Shown here one piece after another: positions 547 to 64,000 of a DNA stretch of 64,000 nt (positions are counted from its first letter, which is position 1; each line of letters opens with the position of its first letter). The notes under the pieces were generated by a model. It saw nothing but the letters and a program-made list of their open reading frames with translations. It searched no databases and had not been told where the DNA came from. The DNA lies in the NCBI RefSeq assembly GCF_900111585.1, contig NZ_FOHI01000001.1:62001-126000 (forward strand), read 5' to 3'. The translations under genes were made by a program, and so were the position numbers. This DNA comes from Nitrosospira multiformis (GTDB lineage Bacteria; Pseudomonadota; Gammaproteobacteria; Burkholderiales; Nitrosomonadaceae).

Positions 547-966
547 ATGGCTGGCTTGAGTAAAAACACGCCTGTTCCCGTTGAAATCAAGCTACACCGA
601 AAATCACGGCTGCTGGAAATCACTTTCAGTGATGGAAAGACGTTCCAGTACACCAGCGAGTTCCTGCGGGTGTATTCGCCCTCGGCAGAAGTGCGAGGTC
701 ATAGTCCCGGCCAGGAAGTACTGCAGACCGGCAAGAAAGAGGTGAATATCAATCGTATCGATCCGGTAGGCAACTATGCGATTCAACTGACTTTTTCTGA
801 TGGCCATAATACCGGGCTTTATTCCTGGGATCTGCTCTACGAGTATGGTCTGCAACAGGATGAAATGTGGCAGCGCTATCTGCGCCGAATGGAAGAAGCG
901 GGAGCCAGCCGGGAACGGCTCGGGTATTTATCGGACTGGAACCGGGAATCAGCGGCAAAAAGCTGA
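547..966 (+). CDS. DUF971 family protein (gamma-butyrobetaine hydroxylase-like N-terminal domain)
   Basis: This 139-residue protein has the DUF971 pattern: an early LEITFSDGKTF strand pair, a YTSEFLRVYSPSAEVRGH segment near residues 35-52, and a repeat-like second half with IQLTFSDGH and GLYSWDLLYEYG near residues 80-101. In eukaryotes the domain is the N-terminal zinc-binding part of gamma-butyrobetaine hydroxylase. Stand-alone bacterial members are small, with no firmly established role; some have been linked to iron-sulfur protein handling. Start ATG at 547 has a GGAGAAAG Shine-Dalgarno just upstream. ubiE follows after 56 bases in the same direction, an arrangement I recall from other betaproteobacteria, so co-transcription is likely. 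Confidence 0.85.
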   Translation: MAGLSKNTPVPVEIKLHRKSRLLEITFSDGKTFQYTSEFLRVYSPSAEVRGHSPGQEVLQTGKKEVNINRIDPVGNYAIQLTFSDGHNTGLYSWDLLYEYGLQQDEMWQRYLRRMEEAGASRERLGYLSDWNRESAAKS

Positions 967-1022
967 GGCTATCCGGAACCAGGCTTCTTCTCCCTCTACC
1001 CTTTATTTAAGTTTGAATATCG

Positions 1023-1757
1023 ATGACGAGAACTACCCATTTCGGCTTTAAGACCGTGTCGGAAACGGAGAAAGCACGCGAGGTAGCAGGTGTGTTTGAT
1101 TCTGTCGCGGACCGTTACAACCTGATGAATGACCTGATGTCGGGGGGCATGCATCGGCTGTGGAAACGATTTGCTGTCGAAACGAGCGGAGTCCGGACAG
1201 GGGACCGTGTACTGGATATTGCCGGGGGAACGGCGGATCTGAGCTCGCTCTTCCTTGAGCAGGTGGGGAGCAGGGGAGAGGTCTGGCTGACCGACATCAA
1301 CAATTCCATGCTGACCATTGGTCGCGATCGGCTGCTGGATGAAGGTACTGCGGTACCGGTTGCGCAATGCGATGCGGAAAAACTGCCGTTCCCTACCAAT
1401 TACTTCGACTGCGTAAGCGTTGCTTTTGGTCTGAGGAACATGACGCACAAGGATGTTGCGCTGAAAGAAATGCTGCGCGTATTACGTCCCGGGGGCTGCG
1501 TTATCGTGCTTGAATTCTCCAGGATATGGAAACCTCTGCAACGGCTCTACGACCTCTACTCGTTCAAGGTACTTCCCGCGATGGGGGGTCTCGTCGCAAA
1601 GGACCGGGACAGCTATCGGTATCTTGCTGAATCCATCCGCGTGCATCCAGGGCAGGAGGAGTTGAAGCAATTGATGCAGAAAGCCGGATTCGAGCGCGTG
1701 GAATATTTCAATCTTGCTGCAAACGCCGTAGCATTGCACCGAGGATACAAGTTTTAG
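1023..1757 (+). CDS. ubiE: Ubiquinone/menaquinone biosynthesis C-methyltransferase UbiE
   Basis: A 244-residue SAM-dependent methyltransferase that carries out the C-methylation step of ubiquinone synthesis (and of menaquinone where present). The UbiE signature is visible near residues 31-50 ([18 protein letters not shown]), the SAM-binding motif [11 protein letters not shown] at about 63-73, and the post-II motif [10 protein letters not shown] near residue 136. The protein ends [11 protein letters not shown], which matches the conserved UbiE C-terminus (usually HxGxKF). Length is normal for the family. It lies 56 bases after the DUF971 gene and is probably in the same transcript. Nothing is odd about the coding sequence. 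Confidence 0.97.
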
Positions 1758-2171
1758 GACCTGCTAGCATTTGTTTCGCATTTCGCACACGCGCGTATGT
1801 CTGCTATCGCACAGAAACCTTTCCGTAGCTGATAATATTGTTGGTTATTCCGTTTTCACAGGAGGATGGAAAAGAGGCAAAAGAAGCGGTAATCATTACA
1901 AATAAGAGCGGAGTGCTCTTCATTTTTCCCTGAATTTTCTCCTGATGCTTCCTTCTTCCTTTATTCATAGCGAGGAGAGGAAGGTAATAAGCTTCTGAAT
2001 CGGTGCCATATGCACCCGCTTTAAAAAGGTTCGGACAGGCGGTGCTGGAGATGCTTGTATAGCAGGCAATATCCCTCTTTTCCCATGGCTTCACACGGAA
2101 GTATAAGCAAGACCCACTCATGTGTGTCGGCGAACTCGGAGTAGATTCGCGACGATTTTTTTCGAGCTATC
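1758..2171. other. Intergenic region between ubiE and the sucrose operon
   Basis: This 414-base gap holds no clear protein gene on the plus strand. It must contain the promoter of the sucrose operon, but I cannot point to a convincing -35/-10 pair. On the minus strand there is a short possible secreted peptide, listed separately. No strong terminator hairpin is visible after ubiE. Confidence 0.4.
1804..1923 (-). CDS. Possible 39-residue secreted peptide (speculative)
   Basis: A short minus-strand frame starts at ATG 1923 and ends at TAG 1804. It would encode a lysine followed by a hydrophobic stretch (MKSTPLLFVMITASFASF) and then a small polar tail containing one cysteine, which looks like a signal peptide or very small lipoprotein. 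CAGGG lies a few bases before the ATG. The frame extends upstream to 2121, but that extension has no protein-like character. There is no family evidence, so this may be chance. Confidence 0.2.
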   Translation of the reverse strand: MKSTPLLFVMITASFASFPSSCENGITNNIISYGKVSVR

Positions 2172-3086
2172 ATGATGATCGAGGTTCGTCACTCAGTGCT
2201 TCTTTTTGGCGAAATACTGATAGACCGGTTCCCCGACCGGGACGTGCTCGGTGGCGCACCTCTTAATGTAGCCTGCCATTTGCACGCTTTTGGCTGTGCG
2301 CCTATTCTCGTAAGTCGAATAGGCCAGGATGCGGAGGGGGCGCGTCTGTTGCAGACGATGGAGAGCGCCGGATTGAGTATGCATGGCATACAGCTTGACT
2401 CGGTTTATCCTACAGGCGTGGTAGCGGTTCATCTGGGGGCAGAAGGGCATCGGTTCAATATTGTCCCTAACCAGGCTTACGATCATATTCATCCACGTCT
2501 GGCACGGATGGCCGCGCTTGCGGCAAACCCGAAAATGGTCTATTTCGGAACGTTGGCTCAGCGCGCCGACTCGCATCGCGCTCTGCGTCATATGCTGCGC
2601 GCAACCAGCGGTCAATGTTTTTTTGATGTCAATCTGCGCGATCCCTGGATTTATGGCGAACGACTGCACTGGTCGCTGCGGCATGCCGATATCGTTAAAG
2701 CGAACAACGATGAGCTGGATCGTATCGCTCAACTGATGAATATGGATGAGTCTGGTGCCGAGACTCAGGCCAGAGCGCTGATTGAGCGATATCAGTTGCG
2801 CGGCATGCTCATTACCTGCGGCGGAGCCGGTGCCTGGTGGCTGGAGCGTGGGGGAGAAAAAATATCGATTGTGCCGGACAAGGCAGTGGATGTTGTCGAC
2901 ACGGTGGGAGCGGGGGACGCGTTCTCCGCGGTCTTTATGTTCGGCCTGTTGCGGGGATGGGATATGCCCGTCACCTTGATGCGGGCACAGCAATTTGCCA
3001 GTGCGGTTTGCGGAATACGGGGAGCCATTCCCGAACACGGCGATTTTTACGAGCCGTTCATCAGACAGTGGGCAGTGGACGGTTAG
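2172..3086 (+). CDS. Fructokinase, PfkB/ribokinase family
   Basis: A 304-residue PfkB-family sugar kinase. The first PfkB signature region is GGAPLNVA at 27-34, and the catalytic and anion-hole motif DTVGAGDAF lies at about 243-251, with the aspartate of GAGD as the expected catalytic base. The substrate-side NLRDPW at 154-159 is typical of fructokinases. The gene is first in a tight operon with sucrose-phosphate synthase (7-base gap) and sucrose synthase. It therefore probably phosphorylates fructose released from sucrose, giving fructose-6-phosphate for re-use. The start is uncertain by one codon (ATGATG), and the Shine-Dalgarno is poor. Confidence 0.9.
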   Translation: MMIEVRHSVLLFGEILIDRFPDRDVLGGAPLNVACHLHAFGCAPILVSRIGQDAEGARLLQTMESAGLSMHGIQLDSVYPTGVVAVHLGAEGHRFNIVPNQAYDHIHPRLARMAALAANPKMVYFGTLAQRADSHRALRHMLRATSGQCFFDVNLRDPWIYGERLHWSLRHADIVKANNDELDRIAQLMNMDESGAETQARALIERYQLRGMLITCGGAGAWWLERGGEKISIVPDKAVDVVDTVGAGDAFSAVFMFGLLRGWDMPVTLMRAQQFASAVCGIRGAIPEHGDFYEPFIRQWAVDG

Positions 3087-3093
3087 GAGACGG

Positions 3094-5259
3094 ATGAAAG
3101 AGTTATACGTACTGATGCTGAGCCTGCACGGCCTGATTCGGGGCAACGACATGGAGTTGGGGTGCGACGCGGATACCGGCGGCCAGGTGCTGTATGTAGT
3201 GGAGTTGGCGCGAGCACTTGCGCGTCAGCCGCAGGTTGGCAAAGTGGATCTGCTCACGCGAAGGATAGAAGATCCTTCGGTTTCCCCGGATTATTCCCGT
3301 CTTGAGGAACCGCTGGGCAACAATGCGCGCATTATCCGCCTTCAATGCGGTCCCCGTCGCTATCTGCGCAAGGAAAGCCTTTGGCCCTACCTGGATCAAC
3401 TGGTGGATCGCGCGCTGCTTTTTCTCCGCGGGCAGAAGCGCTTGCCGGATGTTATCCACAGTCATTATGCCGACGCCGGTTATGTCGGCATGCAGCTTTC
3501 CCAACTATTGGGCATCCCTCAGATTCATACCGGACACTCATTGGGACGCAGCAAGCAACAACGCCTGCTGGCACAAGGCCGGAAGCCGCAGGCACTGGAG
3601 CGCCAATTCAGCTTTTACCGGCGAATAGCTACCGAGGAAGCGGTATTGCAACATGCTAGCCTGGTCATAACCAGCACCCCTCAGGAAAGCGTCGAGCAAT
3701 ACGGGTTATACACCAACTATCACCCGGAACGCGCGGTTGTCATTCCACCGGGGACTGATATATCGCGTTTTTCTCCTCCCCATCGTCAAAAACCAGTGGA
3801 GGTGGAGACTGCGGGCCTCATTGATCGCTTTCTCACCCACCCGCGCAAGCCCCTGGTATTGACCATTTGCCGTCCTGAAATTCGGAAAAATCTGGGGGCG
3901 CTGGTCGCCGCCTTCGGCAGTTCGCCCAAACTACATGAACAGGCCAATCTCGCCATCGTAGCGGGCAACCGGGATGACATCCGTCAACTGGATGCTGCCC
4001 AGAACGAAGTGATGACCGATCTGCTGCTGGATATCGACCGCTACGATTTATGGGGCAAGGTGGCCCTGCCCAAGCACCACAAGCCTTCCGACATCGCCGG
4101 TTTCTACCGTCTTGCAGCCCAGCGGCGGGGCGTGTTCATCAATCCGGCGCTTACCGAACCCTTCGGTCTTACACTGATCGAAGCTGCCGCCAGCGGACTT
4201 CCCATTGTTGCGACAGAAGATGGAGGACCGCGCGATATCGTGGCGAACTGCAAAAATGGGATACTGGTAAATCCATCGGACACCGGCGCGATTGCCGGAG
4301 CGATCGAGTATGCGCTTGCTGATCCTATGCGCTGGCGGCGCTGGGCGCGAAACGGCGTTTCAGGGGTAAAAAACCACTACACGTGGGAGGCGCATGTCAG
4401 GAAATATCTGCATGTTCTGTCGCGTCTGCTGCATCACGAGCGCAAGCGCATCCGCCGAAACCTGGCGATATATCAAAGGCAACCGCGCCCGCTGCCCTTG
4501 ATATCGCATATGCTCATCACGGATATAGACAATACGCTGCTTGGCGACCGTGCTGCGCTGCGTCGCCTTCTCGCTATCCTGCGAGCGACGCCCCCCAACC
4601 TGGGCTTTGGTGTCGCCACTGGCCGCACGTTGGAAAGCGCCGTGAAAATATTGAAGGAGTGGGGCGTACCCTTGCCCGATGTGCTGATCACCGCAGTGGG
4701 CAGCGAAATCTATTATGGTCCCGAGCTTCGTCCGGATATCGGGTGGCAAAACCTGATCAAGTATCTATGGCGCCGCGATGCCATTGAAAACGTATTGCAG
4801 AGAGTGCCGGGACTCACGCTGCAGGCGCGCGAAAACCAGCGTGAATTCAAGCTCAGCTACAACGTGGATCCGGAAAAAATGCCGCCAGTAGCCAAAATCC
4901 GCACATTGTTGCGCGAGCAGAATCTGTCAGCACACCTGATCTACTCGCGAGGGACTTATCTCGACGTGTTGCCACTGAGGGCGTCCAAAGGGCGGGCAAT
5001 ACGTTATCTTGCGTACAAGTGGGGACTGCCGCTACGCGCATTTCTGGTCGCGGGGGATTCCGGCAATGATCATGAAATGCTGATCGGTGACACCCTGGGC
5101 GTTATAGTCGCCAACCATAGTCCCGAACTCGCAAGCCTGAAAGGGAATGAGCAAATCTATTTTGCCCGGTCCGCATATGCCGATGGCATTGCAGAGGGTA
5201 TGGCGCATTATGAATTTGGTACTTCCATCATGGAGACTGCAAATGCTGCACAAATTTGA
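3094..5259 (+). CDS. sps: Sucrose-phosphate synthase with C-terminal HAD phosphatase-like domain
   Basis: A 721-residue bifunctional-looking protein. Residues 1 to about 460 form a GT-B family 4 glycosyltransferase: the sugar-nucleotide loop DADTGGQ lies near 25-31 and the retaining E-x7-E region [16 protein letters not shown] near 354. The C-terminal part (about 470-700) is a HAD-IIB domain with the nucleophile motif DIDNTL (D477, D479) and motif GDSGNDHEM near 655, as in sucrose-phosphate phosphatase. It should make sucrose-6-phosphate from UDP/ADP-glucose and fructose-6-phosphate, and could dephosphorylate it. The frame is open further upstream to 2995, but ATG 3094 has a GGAGA Shine-Dalgarno and begins with the conserved family N-terminus. 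The last 17 bases overlap sucrose synthase. Confidence 0.93.
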
Positions 5260-60775: not shown

Positions 60776-61234
60776 ATGGCATCAGTCAACAAAGTCATAC
60801 TCATCGGCAACCTCGGCAAGGACCCTGAGACGCGCTATATGCCGAACGGTGACGCGGTAACGAACATCACCGTGGCAACAACCGAGACCTGGAAAGACAA
60901 GAACGGCGAAAAGCAGGAAAAAACCGAGTGGCATCGCGTCACCTTCTACCGCAAGCTGGCTGAGATCGCAGGCGAATACCTCAAGAAAGGACGCTCCGTC
61001 TATGTCGAAGGACGGCTGGAGACGCGCAAGTGGACCGACAAGTCGGGCGTCGAGCGCTACACTACAGATATCATCGCTACCGATATGAAAATGCTTGGCA
61101 GCAAACCCGGGGGAGCCAGCTATGAAGCTCCGGCGAGGGAAGAAGGCGGATTCGCGCCGAGTTCATCCGGGGGCAGGGCGCCCGCCAGAAGCAGCACCGG
61201 GTTTGATGATATGGATGATGATATTCCATTTTGA
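60776..61234 (+). CDS. ssb: Single-stranded DNA-binding protein
   Basis: A 152-residue SSB. The OB fold (about 1-110) opens with [20 protein letters not shown] and contains [21 protein letters not shown]-type core strands. A Gly/Ser/Ala-rich linker leads to the acidic tip DDDIPF, which binds partner proteins. The start codon follows the MFS stop with no gap, and the ribosome site GGAGGGG lies within the end of the MFS gene. It binds ssDNA in replication and repair and is usually an essential housekeeping gene. Confidence 0.97.
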
Positions 61235-61618
61235 ATGGAGATGAGTCAAGATCATCATCAGAATCTAAGCTCTAGCGCGAGTACTGAACCGTCGTGATTG
61301 CCACTAGCCACTGGATTTGAACGGGTAGCTCTAAAACCTTTATGCCGTCGACGCATCAGCAAGGTAGAAAGGGACGCATGACCTCTCAAAAGAGGGCAAT
61401 TTCTGCCCAATCTTTTTGCTCCAATCGCTCCTAAGCGTTCGCACTAATCCACAGTTCCAGACTCCCGAACTGCTGTCCGATAGGTCTTATGCAATCGTCC
61501 CCAGCACGAGGCCCACAGTAACGCCCAAAATACTTTGCTGTATTCGAGTGTATGAGAGTTATCTGGAGCAAAATTTGGAGTCTATAGCTATGTATAAGCT
61601 GTCGCGCTCGAATGCCCT
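61235..61618. other. Junction between chromosomal backbone and the lower-GC reverse transcriptase segment
   Basis: This gap of about 384 bases has no credible gene. The base composition drops from the G/C-rich style of ssb to a more even mix, which suggests a boundary of acquired DNA, but I see no tRNA, integrase or clear attachment repeat. A short TCCATT/AATGGA pairing lies at the ssb stop. The reverse transcriptase promoter is not obvious, and its start at 61619 has no good Shine-Dalgarno. Confidence 0.45.
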
Positions 61619-62206
61619 ATGTTCAAATTAAGTGCAAATGGCCGATTGACAGGGGCGTTCATTAGTCTAGGTGATCTCTATGTCGCTTATCGAAAAGCCA
61701 AGGTTGAGGCTTACTACGAAAACACCCATTTTCACGCACTCGCCTTTACAGAGTATGAGCAGGACCTACATGAGAATCTAACTCGCCTACATCAATCGTT
61801 ATTGAAACCAGGCTTCGCTTGGGCCTTTGATTTGGCGTTTATTGGGGACTTCGCTTATTTGCCAAAGTCAATCGATTCCTCAGTATGGGAAAGTCAGGCT
61901 GATGGGCATTTCCGCGCATTAGATCCACTGAGTGATTGGGAGCAGCGGTTTCATGAGTCAACGATCCGCGCACCCGCCAAGTTAAGGTTGATCATTCGAC
62001 CCACGGTCAACTTCCAAATTGTGTCCGCTCTCTGGATTATCAAAGTTGGTCATCTATTCGACGGTGTGATTAAGCCGGCGGTGTCATACGGGAATAGGCT
62101 TCGTCGCTCTTACAACGAGTTCGGCGATCCGAGAGTGGATGGACCGGCGATAAATTTGACGACAACAGGTCTCTTCGCTCCCTATTTCTCTGCCTACCGT
62201 ACGTAG
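61619..62206 (+). CDS. DRT1-type (UG1) reverse transcriptase, N-terminal part, ended by an in-frame TAG
   Basis: This 195-codon frame encodes the start of a defence-associated reverse transcriptase. SLGDLYVAYRKAKVEAYYEN (16-35) and HALAFTEYEQDLHENLTRLH (39-58) match my memory of the UG1/DRT1 N-terminus. The RT fingers follow with LRLIIRPTVNFQIVSALW and GNRLRRSYNEFGDPRVDGP, and the part ends LFAPYFSAYRT before TAG (62204-62206). The frame continues without any other stop into the polymerase motifs. Homologues would normally read Tyr-Arg-x-Trp-Arg here, so TAG most simply replaces TGG. Codon use and base composition differ from the upstream genes. Confidence 0.75.
   Translation: MFKLSANGRLTGAFISLGDLYVAYRKAKVEAYYENTHFHALAFTEYEQDLHENLTRLHQSLLKPGFAWAFDLAFIGDFAYLPKSIDSSVWESQADGHFRALDPLSDWEQRFHESTIRAPAKLRLIIRPTVNFQIVSALWIIKVGHLFDGVIKPAVSYGNRLRRSYNEFGDPRVDGPAINLTTTGLFAPYFSAYRT
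62204..62206 (+). other. Internal TAG interrupting the reverse transcriptase frame
   Basis: The TAG is codon 196 of an otherwise open 794-codon frame (61619-64000). The next base is C, a context often permissive for readthrough. Twenty-one bases later, ATG 62228 follows an AAGGGA that could act as a Shine-Dalgarno, so reinitiation is also possible. A single G-to-A change (TGG to TAG) explains it. Sequencing error cannot be excluded. Confidence 0.8.
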
Positions 62207-62227
62207 CGTGAAAAGGGATTGTCAGCG

Positions 62228-64000
62228 ATGGAAAGGTCGCTGCAAGAAGGGAAAAGTATCTTGGCGATCACAATGGATATAGAACAATTTTACCATCGTG
62301 TATCGCCCAAGTTTTTACTAAGGAAGACATTTCTAGACTCAATAAAGCTGTCTCTTTATCGGCAAGAATCCATATTTACGAGAGCACTGTTAGCTGCAAT
62401 CGACGTCTGGTACAAATCGACACCCGATTACGTTGATCGTCCAGAGGGAGGAATACCTGTTGGTCTTTCGGCCTCAAAGATCATCGCGAATGTATTGCTT
62501 TCAAACTTCGACAATGAGCTTGTTGATCGGTTAAAACCGATATATTACGGCCGTTACGTCGACGATATTTTTCTTGTCTTCGAAAATCTAGAGGGACTTA
62601 CGACTGCAAGGCAGGTAACGAAGCGAATAGCTGATGTTTTGGCACCTGAATTAGTTCTTGAAAGCAATGATACGGAAGCACCGTCTCTGAAACTTCGTCT
62701 CCCCTATGCAAAAGATTCGGAATTGCTTTTCGTCGGGAAGAAACAAAAGATATTCGCGTTGTCGTCATCGCATGGCCTCGATCTGATACAGCATATTCGA
62801 GAGCAGATTCGCATTCAGTCCAGTGAATATCGTCTGCTCCCCGCTGTTCCGACAACCGGTGTCAGAAGGGCGTCCAAGGCATTGCTGGCGACTCCTAATG
62901 CAACTCTACAAGTAGACGCGCTTCGGAAAGCGGATGTGGTGTCCGTGAAACGCCTAGGAGTATCTCTCTTACTTAGGGATTTGGAAGCTTATTCGGCTGA
63001 CTTACATCCTGAATCATGGAGTGAAATACGTAAAGAGTTTTACGGACTAGCGAAGCGCCACATCTTAACGCCAATAGGTTTTTTTGAATTTTTCGGCTAT
63101 CTGCCTCGGATTTTTGGTTTGATGCTCACGAGCCGAGATGTGCGCGAGGCTAGTCAACTCATTGAAGACTTGATCGCGGTCGCAAATCTTGTCAAGAGAA
63201 CGACCACAGTTGGCGAGGCTGCTCAGTTGCCGAAATTTAGGCTGTGCTTAGTGCAATATGCACAAGCTTTTCTCCAGGCTGGCTTACAGGCTGCGACTGA
63301 ACGTACCCTAAAGTTGGATCGTCAGTATCTTAAAGTGTTGCACGCGCTGTTAGGGTTGGATAAAGACATCAAAATTCCCACTTCACTGCGCTGCCTAAAG
63401 ACGCGTGCCCATCAAATTCTATTGGCTGATTGGGGAAGACGCCCCTATAAGGACTATTGGTATCTGAGCCAAGAGAACGATGAGAAAGGACCACCCATAC
63501 CTCGCCAGCTGGAAATTCAACGAAAGATTAGATTGGGTGGCATTCGGCGTTTCAGTACACAATCGACCAATCTCAAAATTCCGCATTGGCCAGCCCTTGC
63601 ATTTCCGACAAGGCCCTTACGAATCGACGAAATAGCCTTGGTTGCACCGAATGTTCTTTCGGATCCTGTGCAGTTTAAGCATGCCATTCTGGTTTTACGT
63701 GGAGCGAAGGTGTCAGCAAGGTCGCACCTAGGGTTTGTACTGGGAAGTGAGGCGGGTAACGAGGAACCAGCCATATTTATTGTTCCTGGGCACAGCAAAA
63801 AGTTGATAGGGGTGGCGATCACTAGTCTTGAAACGACTGAAGTACAATGGGCTAAGGCGGCAAAAGGAAAACAAGATCGATCAATAGAGCGATATAGAAA
63901 TCTAAACGGACTGGTAAACCAGATTCTTCGGGAGACTAAGACCCCTGACTATATTGTTTTTCCCGAACTTAGTATTCCCCTTCGATGGGGTTTGAGGATT
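62228..64000 (+). CDS. DRT1-type (UG1) reverse transcriptase-nitrilase, main part, runs off the window
   Basis: I translated this frame base by base. It is open from 62207 to 64000. The RT core is clear: motif A TMDIEQFYHRV (about 62270), motif B PEGGIPVGLSASKIIANVLL and motif C YVDD at 62555-62566 (residues 110-113 from ATG 62228). A helical region of about 350 residues follows, then a C-terminal alpha/beta domain that begins with RLGG-like strands and reaches PDYIVFPELSIP at about 63946. Its glutamate sits where nitrilases have their first catalytic Glu. RT plus nitrilase is the DRT1/UG1 anti-phage architecture; full members are about 1,200 residues, so roughly a third lies beyond the edge. 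Confidence 0.85.
   Translation, partial: MERSLQEGKSILAITMDIEQFYHRVSPKFLLRKTFLDSIKLSLYRQESIFTRALLAAIDVWYKSTPDYVDRPEGGIPVGLSASKIIANVLLSNFDNELVDRLKPIYYGRYVDDIFLVFENLEGLTTARQVTKRIADVLAPELVLESNDTEAPSLKLRLPYAKDSELLFVGKKQKIFALSSSHGLDLIQHIREQIRIQSSEYRLLPAVPTTGVRRASKALLATPNATLQVDALRKADVVSVKRLGVSLLLRDLEAYSADLHPESWSEIRKEFYGLAKRHILTPIGFFEFFGYLPRIFGLMLTSRDVREASQLIEDLIAVANLVKRTTTVGEAAQLPKFRLCLVQYAQAFLQAGLQAATERTLKLDRQYLKVLHALLGLDKDIKIPTSLRCLKTRAHQILLADWGRRPYKDYWYLSQENDEKGPPIPRQLEIQRKIRLGGIRRFSTQSTNLKIPHWPALAFPTRPLRIDEIALVAPNVLSDPVQFKHAILVLRGAKVSARSHLGFVLGSEAGNEEPAIFIVPGHSKKLIGVAITSLETTEVQWAKAAKGKQDRSIERYRNLNGLVNQILRETKTPDYIVFPELSIPLRWGLRI

Follow-up and report, generated by a model that had tools for sequence, protein, structure and literature searches.

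The window analysed here is a stretch of 64,000 nucleotides (C14:62001-126000 of G000, a 3.2-Mb genome in 21 contigs), and C14 positions above 126000 lie past its end. All features described are on the forward strand. The ssb gene (60776-61234, Pfam SSB) encodes 152 residues ending in DDMDDDIPF. Its last nine bases (61226-61234) form the left junction of a 3.6-kb insert that begins at 61235, runs through 64000 and ends at about C14:126839 (window position 64839), where a copy of these bases, identical at 7/9 positions, is found at the right junction (C14:126840-126848). Within the insert an ATG frame starts at 61619 and is interrupted by an in-frame TAG at 62204-62206, which splits the gene into 195 and 818 codons. 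The first open piece (61619-62206) covers the N-terminal region and ends before reverse transcriptase (RT) motif A, the TAG being 5' of that motif. The second piece (62207-64000) continues in the same frame for 663 bases beyond the window, to a stop codon ending at C14:126663, and covers RT motif A onwards, an alpha-helical region and a nitrilase. The motif A aspartate is at 62276-62278, the YVDD with the RT catalytic aspartates at 62555-62566 and the catalytic glutamate of the nitrilase, in FPEL, at 63965-63967. The nitrilase Lys and Cys codons (C14:126151 and C14:126292) lie past the window end, and the nitrilase domain is complete once the frame is followed that far. The original prediction that coding sequence extends from 61619 as far as the window end and includes RT motif A, YVDD and the first part of a nitrilase agrees with the sequence and profile searches, and the Lys and Cys that it looked for after 64000 are both present. 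On the other hand its 794 codons do not make one frame, as the 'joined frame' reads across the TAG, and its description of the catalytic residues as intact is correct for the residues tested but not for the gene, which carries the stop.

Family assignment and predicted structure

The two open pieces match one PADLOC profile, RT_UG5-nitrilase, consecutively and over nearly its whole length: the 195-aa piece corresponds to profile positions 21-167 of 907 (150.5 bits, E = 1.7e-44) and the 818-codon piece to positions 170-898 (740.8 bits, E = 6.9e-223). Chance is excluded by these E-values, obtained with both halves against a single profile. The gene is therefore classified, from its profile matches, as a UG5-nitrilase defence-associated reverse transcriptase (PADLOC PDLC03780, DRT). 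It resembles this group in that both pieces fit the profile in order and the RT and nitrilase residues are conserved, and it differs by the in-frame stop and by its solitary position, some relatives being flanked by BREX or restriction genes. The only Pfam match in the gene was RVT_1, and neither Pfam nor NCBIfam named a nitrilase in the 818-aa piece at E ≤ 0.1. NCBIfam scores for the retron St85 RT (36.3 bits, cut-off 235) and the group II RT/maturase (30.7 bits, cut-off 300) were far below their cut-offs, and a group II intron or retron RT was rejected on these grounds.

The gene had been proposed to belong to DRT1 (UG1) and was called UG1-like. The domain order is indeed the same, and among solved structures DRT1 (PDB 9YFD) is the nearest by sequence profile (E 4.6e-17, with the best stretch in the nitrilase; Drt3a came next). 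However, the Drt1a (UG1) profile scored only 87.7 bits in PADLOC against 740.8 bits for UG5-nitrilase, with its best stretch again in the nitrilase, and the gene has about 1013 codons compared to 1229 residues in DRT1. DRT1 membership was rejected on the profile scores and we regard it as highly improbable. The broader part of the proposal, an RT fused to a C-terminal nitrilase and belonging to a defence-associated RT family, is borne out by the profiles.

An AlphaFold2 model was made for the closest uninterrupted relative, the protein of strain Nm13 (83% identity across 816 codons), with 38 relatives in the input alignment, and had a mean pLDDT of 89.2 and a pTM of 0.90. Foldseek searches of the PDB with this model returned amidases and nitrilases first (E about 1e-7, TM 0.4-0.7 by target length, among the best 50 matches). 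For the RT part the best 50 matches included AbiA, AbiK, DRT4, UG15, DRT6, DRT9 and DRT2, all of them at large rmsd and those to AbiA, AbiK, DRT4 and DRT6 being looser (rmsd 7-20 A) than the nitrilase matches; DRT1 9YFD was not among the best 50. Profiles and the structure matches of this model both describe the C-terminal domain as nitrilase-like.

Conservation and the in-frame stop

A profile search of genome contigs, made with an alignment of eight family members, yielded 163 relatives; the best 80 were taken. Open frames of at least 950 aa were present in 74/80, and these were aligned; the other six, with frames below 950 aa and some of them at or near contig ends, were left out. All 74 aligned relatives have the RT aspartates of motif A and YVDD and the Glu, Lys and Cys of the nitrilase, as does this copy, and a Lys in the C-terminal tail (FKPxP here) is found in 73/74. 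Of 109 columns conserved to at least 95% among the 73 others, two differ in this copy: the stop and one further column, where Nm13 shows the same departure. Relative to Nm13, dN/dS is 0.069 over 1013 codons, 0.093 before the stop and 0.064 after it; these values are rough because dS > 1. No match to UG5 was found in phage records at E ≤ 1e-10, and five plasmid records had a match, all less than 60% identical.

The 74 aligned relatives had been selected for open frames and are unable to show a conserved stop, and all 80 were used instead. A stop just before the matched stretch was seen in none of these best 80 of 163 relatives, about 78 of which could be judged (L152 extends beyond its contig end, and the match in L163 starts further on). 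A conserved, programmed stop is rejected by this comparison, and there is likewise no sign of conserved recoding. Since the stop is missing from the relatives, the conserved columns are kept and dN/dS is low, the stop looks like a recent nonsense change or an assembly error. An uninterrupted single frame, which is needed for function and not for descent, is lacking here, and most likely the copy as sequenced yields no full-length protein; it is therefore probably inactive, and only recently so.

Two other readings of the stop would keep the gene active. It could be a sequencing or assembly error, or be missing from most cells, in which case the gene would be whole and working. The stop is the sole clear lesion in 1014 codons and purifying selection is strong on either side of it, but the assembly is good (99.6% complete, 21 contigs) and shortened frames also occur among the relatives (the 6/80 mentioned above), and we consider an error unlikely. 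It is also conceivable that both pieces are translated, by reinitiation or readthrough, giving a split RT-nitrilase, or that the second piece acts alone. An in-frame TTG and ATG follow the stop by 13 and 22 bases and are preceded by the purine-rich AAAAGGGA, and the second piece contains motif A, YVDD and the nitrilase. A split product would, however, carry the region before motif A on a separate chain, the stop has no counterpart in the relatives that could be judged, and RT-dead DRT1 is reported to be inactive (PMC13275509), all of which makes translation of both pieces very unlikely. Inactivation by a recent nonsense change is the reading followed below.

Relatives and origin of the gene

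The 83% identical gene is that of Nitrosomonas ureae Nm13 (G091, loci L050 and L090). About 50 bases downstream of it also align with the present locus, and a similar right-end motif is found 165 vs 170 bases after the gene. The Nm13 gene differs by its open frame of 1016 codons and by its position directly after type I methyltransferase, specificity and restriction genes (PADLOC). Its contig also carries type IV secretion-like genes, recognised by eye, and a gene of the phage integrase family (Pfam, 102.6 bits). In the present insert a possible hsdR relic was found upstream of the gene (61452-61499), a weak signal consisting of one 16-residue match (tblastn E 2e-4, with a 425-base stretch searched alone) that hints at a restriction operon that may have been lost. 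Most likely the gene was acquired horizontally.

Flanks of the best 80 of the 163 relatives were searched by tblastn with proteins of L052, L050 and L053, and the labels were confirmed by PADLOC. BREX genes were found in 19/80 and type I restriction genes in 11/80. The BREX genes lie on both sides of the UG5 gene in 17/80 relatives, and in 12/80 PglX precedes and PglZ follows it on one strand. UG5-nitrilase genes are thus often located inside BREX clusters (L052, L056, L115, L116, L118, L124, L125, L127, L135, L137, L145, L146, L151, L157). A 2026 BREX survey (PMC12839542) contains none of six RT or nitrilase terms, and the arrangement is not reported in the accessible text of two papers naming BREX, reverse transcriptase and nitrilase together. 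A distant UG5-nitrilase (34%) is present in Nitrosospira sp. Nsp14 (G111, L051 8161-11127) beside rpoD-like and dnaG-like genes, as judged by eye, and this neighbourhood is perhaps a second insertion spot.

The insertion site behind ssb

The insert is missing from the close relative G098, in which bases 736-4340 of the present locus (L003) are lacking and ssb directly joins a comEA-like gene for a helix-hairpin-helix protein. The flanks are 96.9% (left, with ssb) and 95.6% (right) identical to those of G098. The G+C content is 46.5% in the insert and 55.5% in the downstream flank. It was proposed from the start that an acquired segment, less G/C-rich than its neighbours, follows ssb, and the position of ssb, the base composition and the empty site agree with this.

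The ssb spot was compared in all 23 Nitrosospira genomes of the set, one genome per species. In 16/23 genomes ssb and cysM are 0.1-1.2 kb apart, one of the 16 being without the comEA-like gene. The other seven carry inserts of roughly 2-6 kb that differ in cargo: the UG5-nitrilase in G000, Lamassu LmuA and LmuB in G111, a dCTP deaminase in G105, SIR2 with a short Argonaute in G104, a DNA methylase with HEPN and GmrSD-N proteins in G094, a DNA methylase with PRTase-CE, ORC-CDC6-like ATPase and CARF6 proteins in G097, and in G103 a protein weakly like ORC-CDC6 ATPases that has no PADLOC hit. Within the genus this spot (window position 61234; L003 735-4340, L046 and L061-L066), located in the gap that separates ssb from the comEA-like gene, is a hotspot for defence genes. 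The gene itself is of a known kind, and the insertion site at the ssb tail is the more novel part of the locus. ssb is not the usual neighbour of UG5 genes, as it was found in the examined flanks of 0/80 of the best relatives (of 163). Nor is the site a hotspot of the whole family, since 24 further ssb loci (21 from genus g3 and 3 from g4, inspected by eye in ORF lists) showed no defence-like insert; one of them (L074) has less than 0.3 kb downstream and in another (L081) ssb is a broken copy with an integrase gene nearby, seemingly in a prophage-like remnant.

The right junction in G000, CCGTTCTGATGCGAC, equals the empty site of G098, and the left copy of these ssb bases reads CCATTTTGA. Similarly the right junction in G094, CCGTTTTAATATTACAT, equals the empty site of G113, while G105 and G104 have different cargo and a common right flank that begins inside the ssb-tail copy. 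The junctions and empty sites of these three pairs indicate separate inserts at one place, with the ssb ending rebuilt on the left. In three of the seven inserts (G000, G105 and G094) the copy at the right junction repeats the last nine bases of ssb exactly or nearly and fits the pattern CCNTTYTRA, and for two of these three (G000 and G094) an empty site matches at that very base. G104 has a degenerate copy and G111 a doubtful one, and none was seen in G097 and G103, so a site-specific reading accounts for only part of the inserts. Between G000 and G105, whose cargo is unrelated, 16/22 anchored bases of the right ends are identical; both anchor and length were chosen after looking, and 16 was also the highest agreement reached by 200,000 random pairs drawn from the two inserts. 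G094 has a different right end (7/22). Searching 125 genomes with the right-end motif gave five exact matches compared to four with the reversed pattern, and a longer motif with at most three mismatches gave 11 compared to 16 with the control. As these are chance numbers, the motif finds no further elements.

No recombinase was recognised in ORF lists and Pfam searches among the main ORFs of the seven inserts, which are those of at least 80-90 aa apart from a few overlapping ones; this speaks against an element that brings its own integrase for integration at ssb. Site-specific insertion is supported for the position, weakly for the shared ends, and lacks an enzyme. It is tempting to speculate that Nitrosospira has a family of small, integrase-less cassettes, each with one defence system, for which the final codons of ssb serve as attachment site. 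A recombinase supplied from elsewhere would insert them at the same base, much like integron cassettes, and the incoming DNA would rebuild the ending of a housekeeping gene; we put this forward as a tentative possibility that may well turn out wrong. Ordinary homologous exchange between the flanks, with one end of short homology, is an explanation that still stands beside it. The locus is a spot of a few kb behind ssb where whole defence systems vary among related nitrifiers and where junctions are repeated at one base. It would be a simple place to seek new defence genes and perhaps points to a route of their movement.

An SSB-like C-terminal tip is also seen in a separate gene of the same genome (G000:C15, L004 8015-9577), an RT matching the DRT8 profile with 454 bits and ending in FDDDDNIPF. 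Such a tail is missing in four more distant relatives (L179, L181, L182 and L183). A 76% identical homologue in G354 (L180 9528-11090), located beside a uvrA-like gene, ends in DFDDDLPF.

Possible function

The overall reading that we find likely is that a UG5-nitrilase RT gene entered a Nitrosospira-type chromosome by horizontal transfer, as a single-gene insert with ssb on one side and the comEA-like gene on the other, and is now interrupted by a stop before motif A; by analogy it would act in a DRT1-like abortive infection, and this copy is probably inactive. Its domain make-up places the gene in class 3 of a recent classification, which comprises RTs with a nitrilase or phosphohydrolase, in a paper that does not name UG5 (PMC13275509). 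According to this paper, DRT1 immunity requires both RT and nitrilase residues, DRT1 and DRT5 make untemplated DNA, and the priming serine of DRT1 (S402) is not conserved in other class 3 DRTs. DRT1 (PDB 9YFD) shares with the UG5 protein the RT, the alpha-helical region, the nitrilase and a conserved Lys-bearing C-terminal tail, but belongs to another RT clade by profile and is longer at 1229 aa. By analogy with DRT1, the RT of an uninterrupted UG5-nitrilase protein might prime untemplated DNA synthesis on itself, and the DNA adduct would then set an assembly that holds or frees the nitrilase. Infection would free the nitrilase, which may kill or arrest the infected cell and thereby confer antiphage activity. 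As the priming serine is reported not to be conserved in other class 3 DRTs, the UG5 mechanism may differ from that of DRT1.

No UG5-nitrilase biochemistry was found in the literature searched, and the mechanism is little studied. The present gene is an interrupted but otherwise well preserved member of the family, and the uninterrupted Nm13 copy provides a partner for asking whether UG5 works like DRT1. The validated antiphage systems include, according to PMC9122126, a UG5 RT-nitrilase with a partner of one transmembrane (TM) segment from a P4-like satellite. The likeness extends to the UG5 RT, the C-terminal nitrilase and the placing of a single system in each small hotspot, bounded by conserved genes, and the system is reported to be antiphage there. 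It differs in that the tested UG5-nitrilase had the TM partner and was located on a satellite, whereas the gene here has a chromosomal ssb site and no such partner: none was seen among the ORFs of at least 20 aa flanking the gene, and a TM partner as in the P4 system was rejected accordingly. In relatives from Aeromonas and Pantoea (L104 and L108) a small protein with a likely membrane helix, recognised by eye, is encoded directly after the UG5 gene, an arrangement that resembles the reported system of UG5 with a one-TM partner.
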